From positions 3,231,501 through 3,295,500 of the forward strand of contig NZ_CP112881.1 in NCBI RefSeq assembly GCF_026409565.1: a stretch of 64,000 bases of DNA, written 5' to 3'. Shown here in pieces: positions 7,001 through 19,923 of this stretch. How positions within the stretch are numbered: the stretch's first letter is position 1; each line of letters starts with the position of its first letter. A program made the translations under genes and the position numbers. The stretch comes from Sneathiella aquimaris. Lineage in GTDB: Bacteria > Pseudomonadota > Alphaproteobacteria > Sneathiellales > Sneathiellaceae. The notes under the pieces were generated by a model, which saw nothing but the letters and a program-made list of their open reading frames with translations, made no database searches and had not been told where the DNA came from.

Positions 7001-8026
7001 ATGAACGAGATTTTAAATGCAAAAATCCTGTTTATCGGAAACAAGGATGGAGACGCACAGCAAATCGGCTGGCTATTGGCAAATATCTCCAAACCTTCCA
7101 TGGATCTGATGCATGTGCCTGATGCGCACGCTTTTATCAATCAGCAAAGCGCCGCAGGCGCCGATGTCATCCTGCTGGATCAAGACAGCACTGGCGATAC
7201 CGCTTTTGAAACCCTCAAAGACCTAAGAAGAAATATCCCGTCTGTTCCGGTTGTCATTTTAACAGATGATGAAGAAAACACCGGTCAGGAGGCTATTCGA
7301 AGTGGCGCTCAGGATTATGTTATCCGGAGCCAGTTAACCAGTAGCATCATGGCCCGCAGCCTGATTAGTGCGATTGTGCGGCATCAAGGTCAAAGCAACG
7401 CACCGGCGACAACGCCTCTGTTGGAATCAGCGACGGCTGTACTTAACAAGCTCCCTTTGGGTGTCATTCTGATGACCGAAAGCTCTCAGGTTCTTTTCTT
7501 CAATGATAAAGCAAAAAAATATCTGGAAAAAAAGGACGGCCTCATACTGGATTCAGAACAGAAATGCCGGGCAACCGTGGCCAGTGAAAACAAAAAGCTG
7601 GCGGAGCTTCTGACAAACACACTTTCACCGGAAACCAATGGAAAGGGGGAACTGGATTTCGCCCTGACAATCACCCGTGAAGAGAGTGATACACCGCTTA
7701 CCGTTATGCTCGCCCCAATCGGAACCGGAATAGCCGGCAAAGGAGCCGTTCTTTTTGTCTCAGACCCTGCAGAGCCTGTGGAGCTCTCTATCGATACAAT
7801 TTGCCGTCTTTACGCCTTAACACCCGCCGAGGGTAGGCTGGCTCTGGGTCTTACAAATGGCAGTAAACTGGATGATCTGGCTGAGGAATGGGGCGTTAGC
7901 ATGCATACTGTGCGTTCTCAATTACGGCAGATTTTCCGAAAGACCGACACCAGTCGCCAAAGTGAACTGGTTAAGCTCATTCTAACTGGCCCCGCCGCAC
8001 TTCAGGCATCCCCTGCAATTTTATAG
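7001..8026 (+). CDS. LuxR-type regulator with degenerate receiver and PAS-like domains
   Basis: A 341-residue putative transcription factor. Residues ~8-125 look like a response-regulator receiver (DVILLDQD strand with the phospho-acceptor-like Asp, VVILTDD, SGAQDYVIRSQL). The N-terminal acidic pair is missing (LFIGNKDGD), and the conserved Lys after the last strand is Arg (DYVIRS). Residues ~145-255 resemble a PAS fold (LPLGVILMTESSQVLFFNDKA). A LuxR/GerE helix-turn-helix follows from ~265 (LTPAEGRLALGL ... WGVSMHTVRSQLRQIFRKT). It faces the HD-GYP-like gene of the Lap-like module tail to tail, so a regulatory link is possible but not shown. No partner kinase lies beside it. Confidence 0.75.
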   Translation: MNEILNAKILFIGNKDGDAQQIGWLLANISKPSMDLMHVPDAHAFINQQSAAGADVILLDQDSTGDTAFETLKDLRRNIPSVPVVILTDDEENTGQEAIRSGAQDYVIRSQLTSSIMARSLISAIVRHQGQSNAPATTPLLESATAVLNKLPLGVILMTESSQVLFFNDKAKKYLEKKDGLILDSEQKCRATVASENKKLAELLTNTLSPETNGKGELDFALTITREESDTPLTVMLAPIGTGIAGKGAVLFVSDPAEPVELSIDTICRLYALTPAEGRLALGLTNGSKLDDLAEEWGVSMHTVRSQLRQIFRKTDTSRQSELVKLILTGPAALQASPAIL

Positions 8027-8059: not shown

Positions 8060-8258
8060 TAAATCCATATAAACCAGTTGGATAATCTAACCGAAGATTG
8101 CATCCCTCGCACTTATCAGCTGGCTATACCGCAGGGGGGGCAATACGGGCCGCCGCAACAGGGAAAACCGACGAGGTGCATCCGGGGCGTGGCCCACGGC
8201 AGCACTGGTGGCAATACTTGCACGGTTAGAAATGACCCGGCGACAAGCCCGGTCTTTT
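8060..8258 (+). ncRNA. Candidate structured RNA or long 3' UTR, unidentified
   Basis: The 230 bases between two convergent genes hold a GC-rich, pairing-rich stretch with no convincing reading frame. AACCG (near 8167) can pair with CGGTT (near 8223), GTGCA with TGCAC inside it, and GCGTGG with CCAC inside that. A terminator-like hairpin with a U run closes the region at 8234-8258. I compared it by eye with 6S, SRP, RNase P, tmRNA and the common riboswitches and found no match. It could be the 3' UTR of the LuxR-type gene or an independent small RNA. Confidence 0.35.
8234..8258 (+). terminator. Intrinsic terminator
   Basis: GACC-C-GGC and GCC-C-GGTC pair with one C-C mismatch around a GACAA loop, followed by TTTT. 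It ends transcripts from the LuxR-type gene and/or the RNA candidate, and overlaps the stop codon of the convergent HD-GYP-like gene. Confidence 0.55.
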
Positions 8259-10392
8259 AATCACCGGGCTGTTCGTCTGCTTCCGGATCTGGAAGGGTAT
8301 TCGAGAAATGCTGCCATTTTTCGCGGCCCCCGCCATTTTCAAGAAAATTAATGAGTGCACTAATGGGTTTGCGATCGTATTTCTTGTCCGCTTCTTCCAA
8401 AAGAATGCTGACCGCTTTATTGAAATCAAACGCATCTCGGTAGGCTCTCGGGCTAACCATACCGACAAAAGCGTTTGCAACGGCAACAATCCGCGCCGCT
8501 TCATTGATAGCGGTCTCCTTTAACCCACGAGGATGGCCGGTGCCGTCCCAATGCTCCTGCAATTGACGGAGGGTTTCCGCAATAGGCAGATCAAATTTTA
8601 CATTTTCAAGTAAATCCGCACTGGAAACGAGGCTTTCTCTAATGATACGCAGCTCCTCTTCCGTCAATCGTTCCGTCTTGGTCAGAATTTTGGACGGCAC
8701 CAAAATCTTACCCAGGTTCATCAAATTACCGGAAATATCGACGGTTCGGATGACCCGTTCTGACGCTTTTAACTCTTCGGCAATCGCAACGGCTACTTCC
8801 GCGACCCAGACCGACTGATGAGCGGAATACGGATCCCGCTTATCAACAAAGGCCACCAATGCAGACACAAGACTGCGCAATACATTTTCCCGGCGCTCCC
8901 GCTCGGTCACGACTTCAGTTATGTCCTGAAATACCGCGAGCATGTTTTGCACATCATTTTGATCTGTTCTGAGCGGAATAATGTCAGACTTAACAATGCG
9001 ATCCCCGTGCTGTGGATCCGGCAAATTCATAACCGCAGACTGAACCGCGTTATCCTGCCGGGCAAAATGAAGCATATCCAAAAGTTTTTTGGATGACTCA
9101 GGGTTCATAACGCTGGATAGTTTCCGGCCCAGAATTTCATCTTGAAGCAATTCTACATTATCTGCTGCCAACTTATTGGCAAATGCATATCGGTCACCCT
9201 GATCAAACACGGCTATTGCTGTTGGTTGCTGATCCGTAACGACTTTCAAAAATTCAGTACGCTCACGAAGTTCTTCGGCAACCTTTTTGTATTTCTCCGC
9301 AAGTTCCGCCGCTCTCAGCGACGTGCCGTGTCGCCAAACGGCCACAACGGTTCCGGTAATTCCCAGGATCAACAACAGAAAAACCCCCAGCATCGCGTTC
9401 CGCCGCTCCCGCGTCTCGGAAAGAGCTTCGATTGTCGTAACACTCCGCACCAGAAACCACGGTGCCCCCGAAATGGCCCGACCGGTCACAAGGACTTCAT
9501 CTCCCAGATAGTTTGACTTAATTGCGAACAGACCCGGGTTCCGCGCCGCAAAGGCCGCTGCCAGCTTATCATCAGAGCTTACTCTGCGTTTGAGTGCAGG
9601 CGTTCCGTCCGCCAGCGGGGAGATATATTCGGTCAACGCTCCTCGTTCGCGGACGAGAAGGGTTTCCGCTGTTTTCTGAACTTCACCTGGCTGAAGAAGA
9701 AGGGGAAACAGGGACTTTCGGACCGTTCTAAGTCCAACGACAAATCCAATAACCTTGTTTGTATCCCCTTCTGACTGAACGGCAAAGATCGGATAAACAA
9801 ACCCCATTGTCGGCTCGCCATCCAGCCCCTCATACAAATCTATTACAGCGGGTCTCCCTCGATCTGCCTCAGCGATGGCTGCACGGATTGCCGGATTCAT
9901 CGGTGGCATATTTCCGCTGGAAACCAGAAGTGTTCCAGTCCGATCCGTCAGCGCAATCCCTGCCCGTCCCGGACGTGCGACATTGGCATTAATCTGTGGC
10001 TCCTCTGGCTCCCAAAACCCACTTATAACCGCATGATTGTTTAACAGGTTTATCAGATATCCAGCTTCAGGTACCTCTGTAACCTTAAGACCGTTTTCTT
10101 CCGTATCAAGAACCAGTTGAGTAAGATAAACCTGCAGGGACGCGTTCTCAGAAAGACTACTGATCGCTGATTTTTGTTCGGCCAACCACCCTTCAACCGC
10201 TGCCACACGGCTATCGGCGACAATACCCAACCGGATCTCCCAGTTTTGGATATCCCGATCATGCTGTTTTCCAACAAAGCTGATTGTACCCCAAACGCCC
10301 AGCGCAACCACGAGAGCAAGACTTATTGCACCCAACCATACCATCCGATAGGTCCGTTTGTTTTCATAAGTCTCTTCTTGAATGTCTGACAT
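8257..10392 (-). CDS. Membrane sensor with PAS and catalytically degenerate HD-GYP domain
   Basis: A 711-residue protein. It has a short cytoplasmic head, TM helix ~17-40, a large periplasmic sensor (~41-345, Cache-like by layout), a second TM (~350-370), a linker helix, a PAS domain (~390-505) and an HD-GYP-like domain (~520-690). HD-GYP enzymes hydrolyse c-di-GMP with an HD metal centre. Here the HD pair (usual LLHDIGK) reads NLMNLGK, with Met558-Asn559. The following metal His is Ser (RESLVSS), and the HH before WDG is LQ (LQEHWDGTGHP). All these metal ligands are gone, so phosphodiesterase activity is not expected and a c-di-GMP-binding or protein-interaction role is more likely. The ATG at 10392 has a GGGA site; the frame extends 23 codons further to a TTG. 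It is divergent from the LapG-family gene, 164 bases away. Confidence 0.8.
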   Translation of the reverse strand: MSDIQEETYENKRTYRMVWLGAISLALVVALGVWGTISFVGKQHDRDIQNWEIRLGIVADSRVAAVEGWLAEQKSAISSLSENASLQVYLTQLVLDTEENGLKVTEVPEAGYLINLLNNHAVISGFWEPEEPQINANVARPGRAGIALTDRTGTLLVSSGNMPPMNPAIRAAIAEADRGRPAVIDLYEGLDGEPTMGFVYPIFAVQSEGDTNKVIGFVVGLRTVRKSLFPLLLQPGEVQKTAETLLVRERGALTEYISPLADGTPALKRRVSSDDKLAAAFAARNPGLFAIKSNYLGDEVLVTGRAISGAPWFLVRSVTTIEALSETRERRNAMLGVFLLLILGITGTVVAVWRHGTSLRAAELAEKYKKVAEELRERTEFLKVVTDQQPTAIAVFDQGDRYAFANKLAADNVELLQDEILGRKLSSVMNPESSKKLLDMLHFARQDNAVQSAVMNLPDPQHGDRIVKSDIIPLRTDQNDVQNMLAVFQDITEVVTERERRENVLRSLVSALVAFVDKRDPYSAHQSVWVAEVAVAIAEELKASERVIRTVDISGNLMNLGKILVPSKILTKTERLTEEELRIIRESLVSSADLLENVKFDLPIAETLRQLQEHWDGTGHPRGLKETAINEAARIVAVANAFVGMVSPRAYRDAFDFNKAVSILLEEADKKYDRKPISALINFLENGGGREKWQHFSNTLPDPEADEQPGD

Positions 10393-10450: not shown

Positions 10451-10500
10451 CATACTGACAAAATGGCGAGATAACGAAAAATTCATCACACCATCCCCGT

Positions 10501-10556: not shown

Positions 10557-11225
10557 ATGAATAGATTTATTAGTAGGCTCATGAACAGATATACTAAATT
10601 GCCGAGGCGATTGCTGATGACCTGCACATTTGCGTGCAGTTTGATGATGGTACCTCACATACCATCTGCTCAGGCTGTTGGTATTTTCGGTTTTAAAGAA
10701 TATGCTCATGATGATCTGAAACCGTTTCCTAAATGGAAAAATGTTTTGGAAACTTATAAAGATACCCCGGGCGACTGCGATAATGGTCAGCTAAACGCCT
10801 GCGCTTATGCCAAATGGGAAGAACTTGTCGAAGGATTAAAGGGCAAGCCGAAAAAGTATCAGTTAGAGCGGGTTAATACCTATATCAACCTCCACAGATA
10901 TATCCTGGATCCTATCAACTGGGGCGTAAAAGACTATTGGGAAATACCCAAAGAATTTTTTGCCCGTTTTGGCGACTGTGAAGACTATGCCATCGTCAAA
11001 TATTTCACGCTGCGTTCCTTGGGCTGGAAAGCCGAAGACATGAAGATCGTGGTGCTTCAGGATCTGAACCTTAGAATAGCCCATGCGGTGTTAGCGGTTC
11101 AATTCGACAAAAAAGAAGTCGTGCTCGATAATCAGATCGGACTGGTTATTGATGCAAAAAGAATAAGGCATTACCGACCCATCTATTCGGTAAATGAACA
11201 AGGCTGGTGGCGTTATAAACCTTAA
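10557..11225 (+). CDS. LapG-family periplasmic transglutaminase-like cysteine protease
   Basis: A 222-residue BTLCP-family (LapG-type) protein. In described Lap systems LapG is a calcium-dependent periplasmic protease that cuts the N-terminus of a surface adhesin and releases it from the outer membrane. A signal peptide ends near residue 40 (PSAQA-VG). The triad is complete: Cys141 in FGDCEDYA, His176 in IAHAVL and Asp191 in VVLDNQ. The start may be Met9 rather than Met1. It is convergent with the TolC-family gene across a strong bidirectional terminator and divergent from the degenerate HD-GYP sensor, not from a LapD-type receptor. It is the active partner of the pseudo-protease at 17160. 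Confidence 0.88.
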   Translation: MNRFISRLMNRYTKLPRRLLMTCTFACSLMMVPHIPSAQAVGIFGFKEYAHDDLKPFPKWKNVLETYKDTPGDCDNGQLNACAYAKWEELVEGLKGKPKKYQLERVNTYINLHRYILDPINWGVKDYWEIPKEFFARFGDCEDYAIVKYFTLRSLGWKAEDMKIVVLQDLNLRIAHAVLAVQFDKKEVVLDNQIGLVIDAKRIRHYRPIYSVNEQGWWRYKP

Positions 11226-11307: not shown

Positions 11308-12651
11308 TTAGCTGTCGCCGTTTGGCAATGCATCTTCAAGAAGTGTAACACCCAGTGTGCTGTTCAAACGACCCATGGACGCCAGCAACCGGTATTTGGC
11401 AAATAGAACCGCATATTCGACAGTTGCCAAAGATGTTCTTGAGTTGAACAGTTCGTTATCCGAATCGAGCATATCAAGAAGATCTCGCTGTCCGATCTGG
11501 AATTCCTGACGGTATGTTGCAGCAACCTGACCGTTTGCAACAACCTGATCACTCAGAGCAGCTGCCCGAGCCTGTGATCGTGCAAGAGCACTCCAGCCCT
11601 GGCGAATTTCTTCTTCAACAAGACGCTCGAAACGCATCTGACGCTGTTTTGATTCTGAGTTACGTTCAACGGCTTCCCGTTGACGACCCAGATCAATACC
11701 ACCGCGATACAGGTTGTACCGAAGACGAACCATTGCAGTGAAGTCTTCGTTATGCCCTTCAACACCATCAAGATTGTTGTCAGCGGACGCATCAAGTTCA
11801 AGATTTACAGTAGGGTAGAAATTCGCTTCTGCAGCGGTAATTTCGGCAGTCGACGTCCGAACATCTGCTTTCGCAAAACGAATGTCTGGATTACTTTCCA
11901 TTGCGATTGCAATGATATCTTCCAGATTTTCGGGAAGGGCACCATCGTTAAATGTTGGCAATTCCAGATTTACAGGAGCTTCACCAACCAGGCGGCGGTA
12001 TGCGATTTCAGACGTATCGAGCTGACGCAGAGTTTCGACAAGAACAGCTTCCGCAGCGGAGACCCGCGCTTCAGTTTGTTGCGTGTCACCAACGCCGCTT
12101 TGTCCAGCTTCAACGCGGTCCTGAATTTCGCGAAGTGTCCGTTTGTGGATTTCGAGATTTTCTGTTGCCAGATTAACAACCTCTAGGTTCCGCAAAACAT
12201 CGAGATATGCCTGTACAACATCCAAGCCAATCGCTTCAGAGCGTTCGCGAACCCGATAAGCCGCGCCATCGATCCGATGTCCCTGACGTTCAACTTCCGC
12301 AGCACGCGCGCCACCGTCAAACAATGTCTGGGAAATTGACAGGCTGCTTTCTGTGCGGCCAAGCCACTCTTGGTTAATGGACGTTGTATTTGTCCATTCC
12401 TGTCCACCGCCAATGGCGATATCAACAGTTGGATAATAAAGGCCTTCAGCCTGCTTCAGCTCTTGTCCGATCGCCCGGCGGTTTGCAGCCGCTTCAGCGA
12501 TTTCCGGATAATTGCTTACTGTGGATTGCACGGCTTCGGCAAGCGTACCCGCCATAGCTGACGTTGAAAATAGCGCGCTACCAAAAATGGCTGCGACGAC
12601 CGCTTTCGAAATCACAGTCCGAGTTGTGCTCGTGACTTCCATTGATTTCAT
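11308..12651 (-). CDS. TolC-family outer membrane protein of type I secretion (LapE-like)
   Basis: A 447-residue outer-membrane efflux/secretion channel. The signal peptide ends at STSAMA-GTLAEAV. Two outer-membrane-efflux repeats follow with long coiled helices. Characteristic pieces are AVQSTVSNYPEIAEA near the N-terminus, LSISQTLFDGGARAAEVERQ, the mid-protein VEAGQSGVGDTQQTEARVSAAEA, and FQIGQRDLLDMLDSDNELFNS near the end, as in AggA/LapE proteins. It would form the trimeric exit duct for the ABC transporter and adaptor encoded divergently at 13521-17160. The ATG at 12651 follows a GGGAGAGGGG site; Met4 is also possible. Confidence 0.9.
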   Translation of the reverse strand: MKSMEVTSTTRTVISKAVVAAIFGSALFSTSAMAGTLAEAVQSTVSNYPEIAEAAANRRAIGQELKQAEGLYYPTVDIAIGGGQEWTNTTSINQEWLGRTESSLSISQTLFDGGARAAEVERQGHRIDGAAYRVRERSEAIGLDVVQAYLDVLRNLEVVNLATENLEIHKRTLREIQDRVEAGQSGVGDTQQTEARVSAAEAVLVETLRQLDTSEIAYRRLVGEAPVNLELPTFNDGALPENLEDIIAIAMESNPDIRFAKADVRTSTAEITAAEANFYPTVNLELDASADNNLDGVEGHNEDFTAMVRLRYNLYRGGIDLGRQREAVERNSESKQRQMRFERLVEEEIRQGWSALARSQARAAALSDQVVANGQVAATYRQEFQIGQRDLLDMLDSDNELFNSRTSLATVEYAVLFAKYRLLASMGRLNSTLGVTLLEDALPNGDS

Positions 12652-13306
12652 ACCCCTCTCCCAAATCTTGTTCAAATTCGTCAAACTCTAAATCGAGTAC
12701 CCCTACTACCAATAGTTGGCTGGGATACCCGTTTGTTCCAGTACTGTCAAACATGGAGATGAGCAGACTGGGTTTAAATTTGTCCTAATGTACTCAAAGC
12801 GCTTGCATACAAACAACTGCATTATGGCAGTATCCATAAATAATCCTCGAAAATTCGCCGTTTGTGTCTTATTTGCAACGAATATTTCGCTTCAGTAATG
12901 ATATATCCACACAAACCATGACGCGTGACAGAATCAATTCCACACAACATGGCATTCAGCGTCCTCGCTAACACGCTCCTGTCATTGCAAGAATCACGAT
13001 ATATCTTGCTCTTCTCCAACCTGTCACCTTCGAACGATGCTCTTTAAGAATCTTTTTGCTGTTTGGCATTGTTGCAGAGAGTCTTCACTGAACGCACTCT
13101 CAAATTTTATGGTTAACGGATATGTCTTATTTTATTGCGTCTTGTCCCAAAGTAACACCAACATGCAGGAAAATAAGGGTTTAATGGTGATGGGGAGGTC
13201 TCGATTTATTCGATTTTAATGGAAAAGAAGCGGGATTAAAGCGGGCATTAACAGCTTTTTCATCAAATAGCCGTTCAATGTCACGACATTAGGTAAAATT
13301 TTAGGC

Positions 13307-13520: not shown

Positions 13521-15788
13521 ATGACAGATAACAGTTCGACATCCGGTTTTGCCGCAGGCACTAAAGAGCAGACCGTAAACCAACAAGAACCCGCAGCGAC
13601 AGAAGCCGCCGCAGGTTTAGAAACAGAAGATTGGGATATACGGCTATCTGATATTTCCAGGGCTGATTTGGATCCTCTATTAGGGTGTCTGGTTGCCCTA
13701 ACCAAGATTTTTGAAGATCCTCGAACCCCGGATGCCTTGATATATGGTCTTCCACTAGAGGAAAACCGGCTGACGCCTCAGCTGTTCATGCGTGCCGCTG
13801 GCCGGGTAGGCATCAGTGCCAGAATGACCAATCGTAAACTCAACAAGATCCCGTCGGTCGTTCTACCGTCGGTTTTGTTGCTAAAGGATCGCAGGGCCTG
13901 CATCCTGCTAGAAACAAACGGCAAGTCAGCAACTGTGGTTTTCCCGGAATCGGGAGAAGGATCACAAACCATTTCAATGGATGATCTCGACGCCCAATAT
14001 GCCGGATACGCGATTTTCCTGAGGCCGAAATTCAAATTCCGCGTGGAGCGGGACGAAACGCTATATGCCCGCAAAGGGTCATGGTTCTGGGGAACCATGT
14101 GGCAATTCTGGCCAACCTATCTTCAAGTGATGATCGCAGCAATGCTGATCAACAGCTTTGCCATTGCAAGCCCGCTTTTTATCATGAACGTTTATGATCG
14201 CGTGGTCCCGAACAAAGCGGTAGAAACACTTTGGGTCCTTGCCTTTGGTGTGATTACCGTTATCGGCTTTGACCTCGTGTTGAAATCCCTCAGGTCCTAT
14301 TTTGTCGATAACGCGGGGAAAAGGGCGGACGTTCTGTTGTCCAGCCGCATTTTCGAACAGGTTCTCAACATTCAGGTTAAAGCCCGCCCCGCCTCTGCTG
14401 GTGCCTTTGCAAACCATTTGCGTGAATTTGAAACCTTGCGGGATTTTTTCGCGTCTGCAACCGTAACTGCGTTGGTGGATTTACCGTTCCTTGGGATTTT
14501 CCTGTTCATCATCTACCTGATCGGTGGCCCGATTGTGATCGTTCCAGCCATTGCCATACCAGCCGTTATTCTGATCGGGTTGTTTCTACAGTGGCCCATG
14601 CGCCGGGCTGTCGCCCAGAATACCGAAGAAAGCTCCCAGAAACATGGCGTAATCATCGAAACCATTTCAGCATTGGATACGGTCAAGAGCCTGGGTGTTG
14701 AGGGGCATATGCAAAAAGAATGGGAACGCTTCGTCGGACAAACGGCGGAAACAAGCGTCAATTCCCGCTTCTTTGCGGGGCTGGGGATAAACCTGTCGGC
14801 CGCGGCGATGCAGTTGGTGACCGTCGCTGTTGTTATTTACGGCGTCACTGAAATGACCAAACCTGACTCGACCATGACTGTTGGTGCATTGATTGCATCC
14901 ACCATTCTTACGGGCCGAACAATGGCACCGCTCGGACAGATTGCCGCTCTGCTAACCCGCCTCAACCAGGCGATTGTTGCGCTAAAAGGCCTGAACCAGA
15001 TCATGAACCTGCCGGTGGAACGCTCCTCTGAAAAAAGACAGTTGAGCAGGCCACATATTTCCGGTGATGTCGAGTTCAAGGATGTCACTTTCAAATACCC
15101 TGGAACAGACCTGCCTGCGCTGTCGGACGTCTCGTTCAAGATCAAGGCTGGCGAAAAAGTAGCGATCATCGGTCCCGTCGGGTCAGGCAAGACAACGATT
15201 TCCCGCTTACTGATTAATCTTTACGAACCGGATGAGGGCGCCGTTCTGGTGGATGGAACAGACATTCGTCAGATTGATCCTTCTGATATTCGCAAGTCCA
15301 TTGGAAGTGTCATGCAGGATGTCACACTTTTCCACGGAACCGTTCGCCATAACATAACAATGGGACACCCTCAGGCGGATGACGAGATGATCCTCAATGC
15401 AGCCAAACTTGCTGGTGTCCATGACTTTATCAGTCGCCATCCGCATGGATATGACCTCCATGTGGGGGAAAAAGGTGCGACCCTGTCCGGCGGACAAAGA
15501 CAATCGCTGGGCATCGCACGTGCCTTGCTTCCCAATCCACCCGTCTTGATGTTCGATGAACCGACCAGCTCCATGGACTTGAACTCTGAACGCCGCTTCA
15601 TCAATCGATTGAAAGAGTATGCAGAAGACAAAACCCTGATTCTGGTAACTCATCGCACGTCACTATTTTCACTTGTCGATCGGATCATCGTTCTGGGCAA
15701 TGGCAAGGTTGTTGCCGATGGCCCTCGCGATGAAGTGCTGAAGGTTGGGCAACGCCCAGGCCGTAAACCTGCACAAAAAGCTAGCTGA
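13521..15788 (+). CDS. Type I secretion ABC transporter, LapB-like
   Basis: A 755-residue inner-membrane ABC exporter. The N-terminus (~45-180) is a C39-like domain (LDPLLGCLVALTK ... IPSVVLPSVLLLK) that binds substrate but is not expected to cut it. The membrane domain (~195-480) contains the ARPASAGAFANHLREFETLRDFF segment typical of LapB-type exporters. The ATPase has Walker A GPVGSGKTT, signature LSGGQRQ, Walker B VLMFDEPT and H-loop VTHR. It would energise export of a large RTX-type adhesin through the TolC-family porin. It heads an operon with the adaptor, the pseudo-LapG and the second HD-GYP-like gene. No adhesin gene is in the window. Confidence 0.92.
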   Translation: MTDNSSTSGFAAGTKEQTVNQQEPAATEAAAGLETEDWDIRLSDISRADLDPLLGCLVALTKIFEDPRTPDALIYGLPLEENRLTPQLFMRAAGRVGISARMTNRKLNKIPSVVLPSVLLLKDRRACILLETNGKSATVVFPESGEGSQTISMDDLDAQYAGYAIFLRPKFKFRVERDETLYARKGSWFWGTMWQFWPTYLQVMIAAMLINSFAIASPLFIMNVYDRVVPNKAVETLWVLAFGVITVIGFDLVLKSLRSYFVDNAGKRADVLLSSRIFEQVLNIQVKARPASAGAFANHLREFETLRDFFASATVTALVDLPFLGIFLFIIYLIGGPIVIVPAIAIPAVILIGLFLQWPMRRAVAQNTEESSQKHGVIIETISALDTVKSLGVEGHMQKEWERFVGQTAETSVNSRFFAGLGINLSAAAMQLVTVAVVIYGVTEMTKPDSTMTVGALIASTILTGRTMAPLGQIAALLTRLNQAIVALKGLNQIMNLPVERSSEKRQLSRPHISGDVEFKDVTFKYPGTDLPALSDVSFKIKAGEKVAIIGPVGSGKTTISRLLINLYEPDEGAVLVDGTDIRQIDPSDIRKSIGSVMQDVTLFHGTVRHNITMGHPQADDEMILNAAKLAGVHDFISRHPHGYDLHVGEKGATLSGGQRQSLGIARALLPNPPVLMFDEPTSSMDLNSERRFINRLKEYAEDKTLILVTHRTSLFSLVDRIIVLGNGKVVADGPRDEVLKVGQRPGRKPAQKAS

Positions 15789-15831
15789 ACCGAAGACAAA
15801 CTGAGTGAATGAAAGACAAATAGGCAAAAAA

Positions 15832-17160
15832 ATGTCCGACAAAATTCAATGGAGTGATACCGATTTTACCTCAGATGTTGTGTCAGCGAAGATGCAGGGC
15901 CCAAACCCTAAATCCTTTCTGCTTCTGTTTGGTGTAATCGCGTTTTTTGTAGCCGCTTATATTTGGGCGGATAATGCAATTCTGGACGAAGTGACCCGCG
16001 GTGATGGAAAGGTTATTCCATCAAGTCAGGTACAGGTTATTCAAAATCTTGAAGGTGGTATCCTGAAAGAACTGTTGGTACGAGAAGGCGAAGTTGTCGA
16101 GAAAGGACAAATCCTCCTACGGATCGATGATACTGGATTTGCCGCTCGGTTCGGTGAAATCGAATCCAATTATATGAATCTGATGGGGCGGGTAACCCGT
16201 CTGCGGGCTGAAGCCAACGGCACAGCACTTGAGTTCCCTCCGGAACTGCTGGCTGAAGCACCCGAAATCTCCGTTCGTGAACAAAATCTTTTCAATGCTC
16301 GTCAGGCTGAATTGCAATCTCAGATTTCTATTCTGCGCCAGCAGGCCCAACAGCGGAAGCAGGAGATTGCTGAAATCAATGGGAGGCTTGCACAGCTTCG
16401 CTCCAGCATAGCATTGGTCAATGAAGAACTGGCCATTACCGAGCCGCTGGCGGTAAAAGGAATTGTGCCAAAGGTGCAGCTTTTGCAGTTGAAACGACAG
16501 GTCAATGATCTGAAGGGCCAGATTTCGGCCTCGACATTAGCGCTCCCCAGAGCAAAAGGGGCCGTAAAGGAAGCCAATCAAAGGATTGAAGAGAAAATTC
16601 TGAACTTCAGAAGTCTTGCTTCTCAAGAGTTGAGTGTGGCGCGCGGTGAGTTTGAAGGCGTTCGCCAAACCATTCTGGCAGCCAAAGATCGGGTTACACG
16701 TACAGATGTCCGCTCCCCCTTGAAAGGGGAGGTCAAAGAGCTCAAAATCCAGACCGTCGGCGGGGTTGTTCGCCCCGGTCAGGATATTGTCGAGATTGTG
16801 CCTATTGAAGATAACCTGCTTGTGGAAGCCCGCATCAGACCTTCTGATATTGCGTTCCTACGCCCTGGTCAGAAAGCGACTGTCAAAATCACCGCCTATG
16901 ACTTTTCGATTTATGGAGGACTGCCCGCTGAACTTGAACGGATTAGTCCAGATACCATTGTTGACGAAAAATCAGGAGAGACCTTCTATAAAATCATCGT
17001 CCGCACTAAAGAAAATTCTTTGAAACGCGGCGAAGAAATATACCCTATCAAACCGGGTATGGTCGCAACCGTGGATACCCTGACAGGTCACAAATCAGTC
17101 TTGGATTACATTTTGAAACCAATTCTGAAAACCAAAAATACCGCGCTGAGAGAACGCTGA
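15832..17160 (+). CDS. HlyD-family type I secretion adaptor, LapC-like
   Basis: A 442-residue membrane-fusion protein linking the ABC transporter to the outer-membrane channel. It has one N-terminal TM helix (~22-42), a split lipoyl domain (VIQNLEGGILKELLVREGEVV and later VRSPLKGEVKELKIQTVGGVV), a long coiled coil (~90-280) and a beta-barrel domain. The ATG at 15832 is chosen because the conserved part starts just after it; a GTG 27 bases upstream is possible. Its stop overlaps the next start by one base (TGATG), showing translational coupling to the pseudo-LapG. Confidence 0.92.
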   Translation: MSDKIQWSDTDFTSDVVSAKMQGPNPKSFLLLFGVIAFFVAAYIWADNAILDEVTRGDGKVIPSSQVQVIQNLEGGILKELLVREGEVVEKGQILLRIDDTGFAARFGEIESNYMNLMGRVTRLRAEANGTALEFPPELLAEAPEISVREQNLFNARQAELQSQISILRQQAQQRKQEIAEINGRLAQLRSSIALVNEELAITEPLAVKGIVPKVQLLQLKRQVNDLKGQISASTLALPRAKGAVKEANQRIEEKILNFRSLASQELSVARGEFEGVRQTILAAKDRVTRTDVRSPLKGEVKELKIQTVGGVVRPGQDIVEIVPIEDNLLVEARIRPSDIAFLRPGQKATVKITAYDFSIYGGLPAELERISPDTIVDEKSGETFYKIIVRTKENSLKRGEEIYPIKPGMVATVDTLTGHKSVLDYILKPILKTKNTALRER

Positions 17161-17861
17161 TGATCAGGAAATCATTCATCTCAACGCTTGCTGTCGCTGG
17201 TCTGATATCGATCGCGACAGGCAATGCCCGCGCTATTACGGACACAGATCTTGGCTTATTCGGAACGATTGAGATCGCCTCCGATGACCTGACATCGTTG
17301 CCGCAGTGGAAGAGGGTCATTTCCAGCTTTAAGGAGTTGGATAAACAGGCCGCCTTATGCGACCGGGACATCCAGAAATGTAAATCGCAACAAATGACCC
17401 TATGGCGCGCAAAGATTCAGGAATTAGAGCTGGAAACAGCCAACGCCAAGGTCCGACAAGTAAACAGCTTCATCAACAAATGGCGTATGACCACGGATGA
17501 AGAAACCTACAAACGTTCGGATCACTGGGCGGAACCGCTGGAATTTATTGTCAATGGCGGCGATTCCGAAGACTTTGCGATCATGAAATATATCAGTTTA
17601 AAGGAACTGGGCATCCCTGCATCAAGTATGAGAATTGTTGTGACCAATGATGTTCTTCGGGGGAAGACACACACCATACTCAGCGTTGATACAGGAAGTG
17701 AACGCTATGTTCTGGATTCTCAAAATAATACGATCTTGAGAGAGGATCTTGTGCGCTATTACGTTCCTTTTTACTCGTTAAATGAAACAAAAAGATGGGC
17801 CCACGTTCCTAAGCAGGCTGCCGATCTGAAAAAGGCAGCAGGGGTTGAAAAAAATGACTGA
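17160..17861 (+). CDS. LapG-family pseudo-protease (catalytic Cys replaced by Ser)
   Basis: A 233-residue secreted BTLCP-family protein with signal peptide cleavage near NARA-ITD. The fold motifs align with the active homologue at 10557. The catalytic Cys is Ser136 (GGDSEDFAIMKY, codon TCC at 17565-17567), while His171 (KTHTILSV) and Asp186 (YVLDSQ) are kept. Cys-to-Ser changes normally abolish activity in this clan, so it is probably inactive and may bind the adhesin or compete for the regulator. It starts inside the adaptor stop codon and overlaps the next sensor gene, placing it firmly in the secretion operon. A serine-type protease is a less likely alternative. Confidence 0.85.
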   Translation: MIRKSFISTLAVAGLISIATGNARAITDTDLGLFGTIEIASDDLTSLPQWKRVISSFKELDKQAALCDRDIQKCKSQQMTLWRAKIQELELETANAKVRQVNSFINKWRMTTDEETYKRSDHWAEPLEFIVNGGDSEDFAIMKYISLKELGIPASSMRIVVTNDVLRGKTHTILSVDTGSERYVLDSQNNTILREDLVRYYVPFYSLNETKRWAHVPKQAADLKKAAGVEKND

Positions 17862-19923
17862 AACAATGGCCAGGTTAGAACTTAACAAATTCATGTCGGA
17901 TGATGTACCGGATGAAAAACTGCCGTCTACATCCAGACCCCTGAAAATCGGGGCCTTAATAGCGATTGTTCTGCTGATCATTTGCTACTTTGCATCCGAC
18001 TTCTTTATTAATAAGCAAAAAGCACAGATCCTGCAGGAATTGAAAACCCGCCAGGAAATCACCGTTGTCAGCAAAGCCGAAATTGTTCGAACCTGGATTG
18101 GCCAGACGGGTCAACGGGCCAATCAAATTGTGAACAATCCGTTGTTTCGTCTTTTTGCGGCTGAAATCAATCAAGCAAAAACAGACGACTTACCCCGGGC
18201 ACTGGCGGAGCAACTGCCCTATATGCAAAATGCGATTACCAGCTTCACACAGGAAAGCGATGTTCTTTCAGCCTATCTTGTGGGGGCGAATGGTCGGGCC
18301 TATCTCGCCTCCAGCGGGGCTTCGGGTTTGAGTGATCAACAACGTGAGCTTGCGATCGCGCAATATGCTTCCAAATCAATTACAACCTCCCCTTTACGGG
18401 TCGTTGGAGAGACCCTTGTTTATGACTTTCTGATCCCTGTCCTTCCGGCGCAATCTGCTGACTCAGCAGAAAATGCAAAAGTCGCAGGTGTTCTTGTTAT
18501 GACCGTACCAGCGTCTGGTCAGATCGCGGAAATTCTTAAGCCATCGCGTATTTCAACATCTGGCGAGAGGACCCGTTTTTATCAGATTTCGAATGATAAC
18601 TACTTTGAGATCACTCCAACGTCACCTCCTTTTCTTGCAGAGCAGGCCTCGGAATTAACAAACCAGAAACCTCGCTCTTTCTCTGCCAAACAGCTTGAAG
18701 GTGAGCCTGATAGCGTTTATGGAATTGGTACAATCGTTCAAGGAACAAACTGGTATATTCTACAAGGCGAGACAGAGCGATCCGCCTTCGCCCCGCTAGA
18801 GACCTATGCGCTGGTCATCTACGGTATTGCTGCCAGTATTTTTGTTGTGGCCATGAGTGTTTTGGTTGGAATCTGGTTAAGCCTTCGCAGTTCAAATGCT
18901 AAAGCAATGGCCGACCAGTACCGGGATTTTGCCCATCAGATCAACGCGCAACGCCGCTTGTTAGGCAGTATCAACAACACAATTGATGACCTGATTTCTT
19001 TGACGGATGCGTCTGGGCGGTATGTTTATGCCAATCCGGCGCTCGCCCGTTTTGTTAATTTTCCAGTGCAATCCATTGCCGGCAAATCAGATCGGGACCT
19101 TTTTGGGGATGTTATTGCCCGGAAACTGACCGACCTAAACCAGCAAGTCATGGATACCAAGGAAACAGCCAGTCGAATTGTTGAAATGGAAATCCAAGGG
19201 GAAACACGTATCCTTCGCATTGAAAAAAGCCGCCTTATGGATGATGACGGCCAATTTATGGGTATCGTTTCCGTTGCTGGTGACATTACAGATTTCATCA
19301 TGCATCAGCGCCAGAAAGAAGAACTCGGTCGCAAGACAATCTCGATTTTGGTTCACATTATGGAAGAAAACGATCCGTATTTGGCCGGGCATTCAAGCCG
19401 CATGAGCGAATTGTCTAATGCCGTAGCTGAAATCATGGAACTTCCCGAGGCAACAAAAGAAGCCATTCGCACAGGCGCCAATCTTTCACAGATCGGCAAG
19501 ATTTCCATCCCGTCGGAGATCCGAACCAAGGAAGGTCGTCTAACCGAGCAGGAAATGGAGATTATGCGGGGCCATGTTGGCAAAGCAAAATCTGTCCTGT
19601 CTGACATGGAAATCGACCAATCGGTAGTTACTGCTGTTACCCATATGTATGAGCGACTGGATGGAAGCGGTTATCCAGCGCAGCTGAGCGGTGCCGAAAT
19701 TGATATGTCCGGTCGAATTCTTGGCATTACAGATATTCTCGTGGCCCGCCTCTCACCCCGGTCTTATCGTGAAGCGATTAGCACTGAAGAAGCAATGGAA
19801 GTCTTTAGAAGCAATCCGGAGAAGTATGATCAGGACGTGGTCGTTGCACTGGACCAGTTCCTGACGACACCGGAAGGCGAGGCTTTCAAAGAGAATGTGA
19901 AAGAGGCCGCTATTCTAGAATAA
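17854..19923 (+). CDS. Membrane sensor with PAS and partly degenerate HD-GYP domain
   Basis: A 689-residue paralogue of the sensor at 8257. It has TM ~30-50, a periplasmic sensor (~51-320), a second TM (~325-345), a PAS domain (~365-475) and an HD-GYP-like domain (~490-660). The HD pair is Ser545-Gln546 (GANLSQIGKI). The next metal His is kept (MRGHVGK), the HH motif is HM (VTHMYERLDGSGYP), and the GYP motif itself is intact. Without the HD centre, hydrolysis of c-di-GMP is doubtful, but binding is possible. The ATG at 17854 has an AGGGG site, and the gene overlaps the pseudo-LapG stop by 8 bases. It is the last gene of the operon before a strong terminator. Confidence 0.82.
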   Translation: MTETMARLELNKFMSDDVPDEKLPSTSRPLKIGALIAIVLLIICYFASDFFINKQKAQILQELKTRQEITVVSKAEIVRTWIGQTGQRANQIVNNPLFRLFAAEINQAKTDDLPRALAEQLPYMQNAITSFTQESDVLSAYLVGANGRAYLASSGASGLSDQQRELAIAQYASKSITTSPLRVVGETLVYDFLIPVLPAQSADSAENAKVAGVLVMTVPASGQIAEILKPSRISTSGERTRFYQISNDNYFEITPTSPPFLAEQASELTNQKPRSFSAKQLEGEPDSVYGIGTIVQGTNWYILQGETERSAFAPLETYALVIYGIAASIFVVAMSVLVGIWLSLRSSNAKAMADQYRDFAHQINAQRRLLGSINNTIDDLISLTDASGRYVYANPALARFVNFPVQSIAGKSDRDLFGDVIARKLTDLNQQVMDTKETASRIVEMEIQGETRILRIEKSRLMDDDGQFMGIVSVAGDITDFIMHQRQKEELGRKTISILVHIMEENDPYLAGHSSRMSELSNAVAEIMELPEATKEAIRTGANLSQIGKISIPSEIRTKEGRLTEQEMEIMRGHVGKAKSVLSDMEIDQSVVTAVTHMYERLDGSGYPAQLSGAEIDMSGRILGITDILVARLSPRSYREAISTEEAMEVFRSNPEKYDQDVVVALDQFLTTPEGEAFKENVKEAAILE

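Follow-up and report, generated by a model that had tools for sequence, protein, structure and literature searches.

The membrane protein D1, encoded at 8257-10392 (reverse strand) of the 64,000-nucleotide stretch of the Sneathiella aquimaris genome analysed here (the window; C1:3231501-3295500 of a one-contig, 3.94-Mb genome), is, judged by its sequence, a receptor whose former HD-GYP enzyme site has been taken apart by replacements that are fixed and inherited. We consider it probable that D1 serves as a c-di-GMP receptor of the DvhD type that restrains the adjoining LapG-type protease G1, and that the nearby pair D2 and G2 makes up a second branch, with G2 acting through binding. Our survey points to degenerate HD-GYP receptors as frequent partners of LapG-type proteases in Alphaproteobacteria, falling into two classes that are distinguished by a single residue pair and, in most cases, by the orientation of the genes.

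Organisation of the locus

The features of the locus, in window coordinates, are as follows.

7001-8026, forward strand: response regulator-like gene with a receiver domain and a weakly matched C-terminal LuxR-type HTH; a conserved neighbour of D1 in the genus
8257-10392, reverse strand: D1, degenerate HD-GYP receptor of 711 residues (open reading frame list, Pfam, phmmer, orthologue alignment)
8347-8889, reverse strand: D1 HD-GYP domain without any of the eight metal ligands (HD_5, E 7.4e-34)
8908-9249, reverse strand: D1 PAS domain, approximate limits (PAS_4, E 8.4e-11)
9472-10266, reverse strand: dCache-like region of D1 in the periplasm, approximate limits (dCache_1 in Pfam at E 0.013, under the cut-off)
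10557-11225, forward strand: G1, periplasmic cysteine protease of the LapG/DvhG type, transcribed divergently from D1 (PF06035, E 5.5e-18; 4fgo, E 7.6e-27)
11308-12684, reverse strand: TolC-type outer membrane channel, LapE-like (TIGR01844, 296 bits, over cut-off)
13521-15788, forward strand: type I secretion ABC transporter of the LssB/LapB type (TIGR03375, 954 bits, over cut-off)
15805-17160, forward strand: HlyD-type periplasmic adaptor, LapC-like (TIGR01843, 416 bits, over cut-off)
17160-17861, forward strand: G2, LapG homologue with Ser at the catalytic Cys position (GDSED), predicted to be inactive as a protease (PF06035, E 9.7e-18; 4fgo, E 3.3e-21)
17845-19923, forward strand: D2, second degenerate dCache-PAS-HD-GYP receptor, overlapping the end of G2 (HD_5, E 1.6e-36; 9rc0, E 3e-52; 9rc2, E 5.9e-16)

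G1 also matches NF045674 (E 4.5e-24, below the equivalog cut-off), and its C-H-D triad and DxE calcium motif are intact in 22 of 22 readable rows. The order response regulator, D1, G1, TolC-type channel, transporter, adaptor, G2, D2 is kept in 17/17 uninterrupted regions of the genus and its sister genus, these regions having been picked for carrying both receptors matched on one contig (the G2 of locus L045 was read separately); loci L058-L067, which largely duplicate genomes of the genus included elsewhere, were left out of all counts. Read together, these sequences are best explained as a putative double Dvh/Lap module in which one protease is active and the other dead; the response regulator-like gene may regulate the locus. 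The genome as a whole holds three HD-GYP genes, 14 GGDEF matches and 7 EAL matches, 5 of the EAL matches being over cut-off. The HD-GYP gene other than D1 and D2 (C1:211101-212009) encodes two tandem domains, the second of which keeps the metal motifs, and resembles by eye the 3'3'-cGAMP phosphodiesterase 5z7c.

D1 has two candidate starts, an ATG at 10392 giving 711 residues and a TTG at 10461 giving 734; the ATG, and with it the span 8257-10392 proposed from the sequence alone, is favoured because the N-termini of its orthologues are conserved as MSDxQxE. The protein has the order TM-dCache-TM-PAS-HD-GYP, with the TM segments judged by eye from the sequence. This membrane architecture matches that of DvhD-type receptors, with the D1 dCache itself below the Pfam cut-off; the dCache of DvhD is solved as 9rc2, the entry matched by the paralogue D2. 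An AlphaFold model of D1, built from a genus-only alignment, was too poor for superposition (pLDDT 37.5).

Loss of the metal site

Computed alignment of D1 to PmGH, an active enzyme of solved structure, leaves none of eight metal-ligand positions in place. PmGH E185, H189, H221, D222, H250, H276, H277 and D305, which we take to be the metal ligands, are replaced in D1 by Y522, Q526, M558, N559, S587, L611, Q612 and N640 (711-residue numbering), so that the E/H/H/D/H/H/H/D set of an active HD-GYP phosphodiesterase is missing throughout; on the same comparison DvhD keeps 2/8 positions and D2 3/8. The sequence-only reading had described the HD pair as Met-Asn, the following His as Ser and the HH pair as Leu-Gln on an otherwise retained scaffold, and every residue that it named is there: D1 reads LMNLGK, RESLVSS and RQLQEHWDGTGHP at the three sites, and KILVPSKIL and SPRAYR are present. 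That reading did not mention the GYP motif, which is GHP in D1 and whose Tyr is not conserved across the D1-type subfamily.

These replacements are fixed, and are neither drifting nor due to chance. Of the D1 orthologues readable in the genus and its neighbours, 22 in all, every one has Asn at the HD Asp position; the HD His position holds Met in 21 and Leu in one, Ser takes the place of the following His in 20, and Gln that of the second HH His in 20. The x-N pair is common to 27 proteins found across the class outside the genus (3 of them also among the 22), and in the receptor tree these class-wide proteins and the genus rows form one clade of 35 with 100/100 support. Conservation across the family, suggested earlier as a check, thus shows the replaced positions held constant, with no random variation, in both the orthologues and the class-wide clade. 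A fragmentary D1 (L043) was left out of the HMM and of the residue counts. Substitution rates point to strong constraint on D1 (median dN/dS about 0.035, 3 pairs; D2 0.052, 3 pairs), all such estimates here coming from pairs with dS below 2 alone and hence from few and related pairs.

The nucleotide pocket compared with DvhD

The closest solved match of D1 is DvhD of Desulfovibrio vulgaris (9rc0, E 3e-45; 9rbz, E 1.2e-39; phmmer), with 38% identity across the HD-GYP domain. According to PMC13090378 (2026), the HD-GYP domain of DvhD binds c-di-GMP at canonical and bridging sites without hydrolysing it, with a Kd of about 99 nM and with contacts mapped in the crystal structure, and DvhD is proposed to restrain the protease DvhG in the way that LapD restrains LapG. 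We followed these contacts, with DvhD numbering verified letter by letter, through 46 D1-type rows (the 22 orthologues and 27 class-wide proteins, with L055-L057, present in both sets, counted once). The 27 non-genus rows were chosen by Asn at position 560, so that its presence in 46/46 is partly a result of selection; the receptor tree gives the same D1-type grouping without that choice.

R650 and R653 are each kept in 46/46 rows, L577 in 45/46, P567 in 44/46 and M646 in 38/46, while K520 is Arg in 45/46, retaining a basic residue. Y652 is Tyr in 27 of the 46 rows, His in 8, Trp in 6 and Phe in 5. Two phosphate contacts, K582 and Y621 (the latter being the GYP Tyr), lack conservation among D1-type proteins, to which E668 has no stable alignment. 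D1 itself keeps R650, R653, L577, P567, M646 and Y652, has Arg for K520, and lacks K582 and Y621; R650 corresponds to its residue R649. Loss of all nucleotide contacts, named earlier as fatal to the idea of a c-di-GMP receptor, is therefore not what the alignment gives: R650, R653, L577 and P567 stand, K582 and Y621 do not, and by this comparison the pocket of D1 is reduced, not gone.

The proposal of a c-di-GMP-binding pseudo-phosphodiesterase parallel to LapD is largely right, and the kind is already known as DvhD; degenerate HD-GYP proteins as LapD analogues have not been new since April 2026 (PMC13090378). In its favour are a solved relative that is such a receptor and the adjoining LapG-type protease; against it stands the loss of K582 and Y621, on account of which we infer, and do not assert, that D1 binds c-di-GMP. 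Because the D1 gene lies divergently beside a LapG-type protease gene, the parallel with LapD would be functional and not merely structural.

Comparison with known systems

PMC13090378 (PDB 9rc0, 9rbz, 9rc2) gives DvhD the order TM-dCache-TM-PAS-HD-GYP without a metal site, which it shares with D1, and the DvhD/DvhG system shares with our locus an adjoining LapG-type protease, type I secretion genes and large adhesins with an AAG site. D1 nevertheless differs from DvhD in carrying M/L-N in place of SQ, in having lost all metal ligands together with the GYP Tyr, in a gene divergent from that of the protease, and in belonging to a separate clade. D2, in which HD is replaced by SQ as in DvhD, is the nearer counterpart. 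The locus as a whole is also unlike DvhD/DvhG in having two receptor-protease pairs, one of them with a dead protease.

With LapD/LapG of Pseudomonas the locus would share inside-out control of a periplasmic transglutaminase-fold protease and adhesin release. LapD, however, combines HAMP, GGDEF and EAL domains with a periplasmic LapD/MoxY domain, and D1 has none of these by Pfam; a search of the genome with LapD_MoxY_N gave no match, but neither did its control, and the search is hence uninformative. PA2572, the YN-GYP protein of P. aeruginosa, reportedly has a degenerate HD-GYP domain that lacks the HD motif, as D1 does; unlike D1, it is a soluble receiver-HD-GYP protein and is not known to be tied to a LapG-type protease.

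Receptor-protease pairing across the class

We surveyed 289 alphaproteobacterial genomes, 80 of which gave a BTLCP match. Of the 126 BTLCP places listed, 83 were fetched in 80 regions, 3 were included from the start and 8 came from the genus itself; those left out comprise 25 scoring roughly 120 bits or higher, regarded as a different type, and 7 weak matches. Among 83 loci around LapG-type proteases (80 fetched for this survey, 3 included from the start), an HD-GYP gene lies alongside in 35, and the HD motif is absent from 34 of these 35 genes. The other 48 loci show no HD-GYP gene over the span retrieved, in several cases because the contig ends.

Class 1 receptors (x-N, D1-like) occur at 27 loci, 24 divergent from the protease gene, 2 convergent and 1 co-directional; at the 7 loci with class 2 receptors (S/A then Q/G/S, as in D2 and DvhD) the protease gene is in every case directly upstream on the same strand. 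Two loci are exceptions to this two-class picture. One (L115) is class 1 by sequence yet co-directional, and the other (L157, genome G190) encodes a 208-residue HD-GYP domain with an intact HD motif, overlapping the preceding LapG-like gene. In the protease tree the class 2 partners (15 rows, 99/95) stand apart from most class 1 partners, with weak joins elsewhere. The receptor and protease trees divide into largely matching halves, several rows of the latter having long branches and weak joins. Among openly licensed papers we found no earlier description of the class 1 subfamily or of the pairing of active and dead proteases, and the word Alphaproteobacteria is absent from the main text of PMC13090378.

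A LapG homologue that has lost its cysteine

G2, the partner of D2, carries GDSED instead of GDCED. At the Cys position, 21 of the 22 aligned copies have Ser and the copy from the sister genus has Pro; two further genus copies are also Ser, which is therefore found in 23/23 readable genus copies. The His is kept in 21/22 aligned copies, and the calcium motif keeps its D in 15/22 and its E in 14/22, other genus copies reading GGSRD and similar. Median dN/dS is 0.095 for G2 against 0.085 for G1 (5 pairs, with the same restriction on dS), and G2 is under purifying selection and is not a decaying gene. Its AlphaFold model, again from a genus-only alignment, was too poor (pLDDT 42.2). Most likely G2 acts by binding and not by cutting, and would shield the adhesin site, occupy the receptor or stay with the secretion machine.

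Outside the family, the proteases of class 2 pairs have Cys in 6/7 cases and Asp in one (genome G202, locus L128). There, a LapG homologue reading GDDED lies beside a class 2 receptor, and the same genome has a pair with intact Cys (L131); G202 may have reached the same state independently. Receptor-paired dead LapG copies were seen, in two lineages, solely where another Cys-bearing LapG homologue is present. In two small genomes (L151, L153) a LapG-like protein carries GDSED together with Arg in place of the His, and no HD-GYP neighbour was found for either. A regulatory protease with a dead paralogue maintained beside its own receptor raises the question of what LapG can do without cutting.

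Proposed mechanism and alternatives

In the mechanism that we favour, D1 would be an inner-membrane receptor whose HD-GYP domain is unable to hold catalytic metals and therefore unable to hydrolyse c-di-GMP. It would bind the nucleotide through the retained parts of the pocket and the dimer-bridging site, and binding would shift the conformation of stalk, transmembrane and dCache regions such that G1 is restrained, a step taken by analogy from DvhD. As c-di-GMP falls, G1 would cut two large RTX adhesins at VAPAAG, releasing them from the surface. D2, encoded in the type I secretion operon, would be coupled to G2, whose catalytic cysteine is lost and whose gene is kept by selection. Points against this mechanism are the unconserved K582 and Y621, the His at Y652 in 8 of the 46 rows, the adhesin homologues of half of the genus, in which AAG is missing at the expected place, and the 48 loci at which no HD-GYP gene was seen. 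A more tentative extension, which we would sooner doubt than adopt, is a two-tier switch in which both receptor classes read c-di-GMP, one restraining the active LapG and the other handling a dead LapG that shields the adhesin cleavage site or competes for the receptor, with release set by the balance.

The most serious alternative, itself rather unlikely, is that D1 no longer binds a cyclic dinucleotide and controls G1 either as a scaffold that needs no ligand or by sensing a ligand through its dCache domain in the periplasm or through PAS. The missing GYP Tyr and K582 and the variable Y652 of D1-type proteins would fit this, as would the usual role of dCache and PAS domains as sensors and the conservation of the D1 dCache (40 positions at least 90% conserved, vs 42 in the HD-GYP domain); the invariant pocket residues R650 and R653, the nearly invariant L577, P567 and basic residue at 520, and the low dN/dS of D1 argue against it. 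That D1 might instead be an active phosphodiesterase with an unusual metal site draws on the clear HD-GYP family match and is barely credible with 0/8 ligand positions kept, the more so as DvhD, with more ligands left, is inactive (PMC13090378). Scarcely better is the idea that the degeneration reflects neutral drift in a superfluous gene copy: the D1 reading frame is interrupted in some draft genomes (L043, L065), possibly through assembly errors, but identical replacements across the class, strong constraint and conserved gene order speak against it. G2, for its part, could be alive as a Ser-His-Asp serine protease acting on the same or another substrate, given that the window copy retains Ser, His, Asp and the DxE motif. 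We hold this improbable, with the calcium motif lost in other genus copies, His lost in one and Pro in the sister genus, and with the C317A and calcium-site mutants of DvhG inactive (PMC13090378).

Candidate adhesin substrates

Two tandem RTX proteins of 2775 residues (C1:3300161-3308485) and 1651 residues (C1:3308754-3313706) are encoded from about 5 kb beyond the window. Their N-termini are near-identical, each with a BapA_N-like prefix (below the Pfam cut-off) followed near residue 100 by FNPDLVAPAAGG, which contains the site VAPAAG. This fits the LapG consensus, given in PMC13090378 as [T/A/P]AAG with a DP motif before it, the preceding motif here being NP or DP. Among six long RTX open reading frames in the genome, just these two have a LapG-type site in the first 450 residues. 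AAG stands at the expected place in 17/32 matching rows from the genus; the more distant homologues, where read, carry PEAG, PQAG or PASG instead, and in a few of these rows AAG follows some 80 residues further on, so that half of the genus has this site altered or displaced. A FecR/LapA-retention-like RTX protein at C1:520k was set aside as a substrate because its retention match is below cut-off, AAG is absent from its first 450 residues and it has its own secretion genes. Elsewhere, L075:4513-10566 encodes an RTX protein of 2017 residues with a retention_LapA-like, presumably also FecR-like, N-terminus, encoded downstream of presumed HlyD, CHASE2-cyclase-like and TolC genes.
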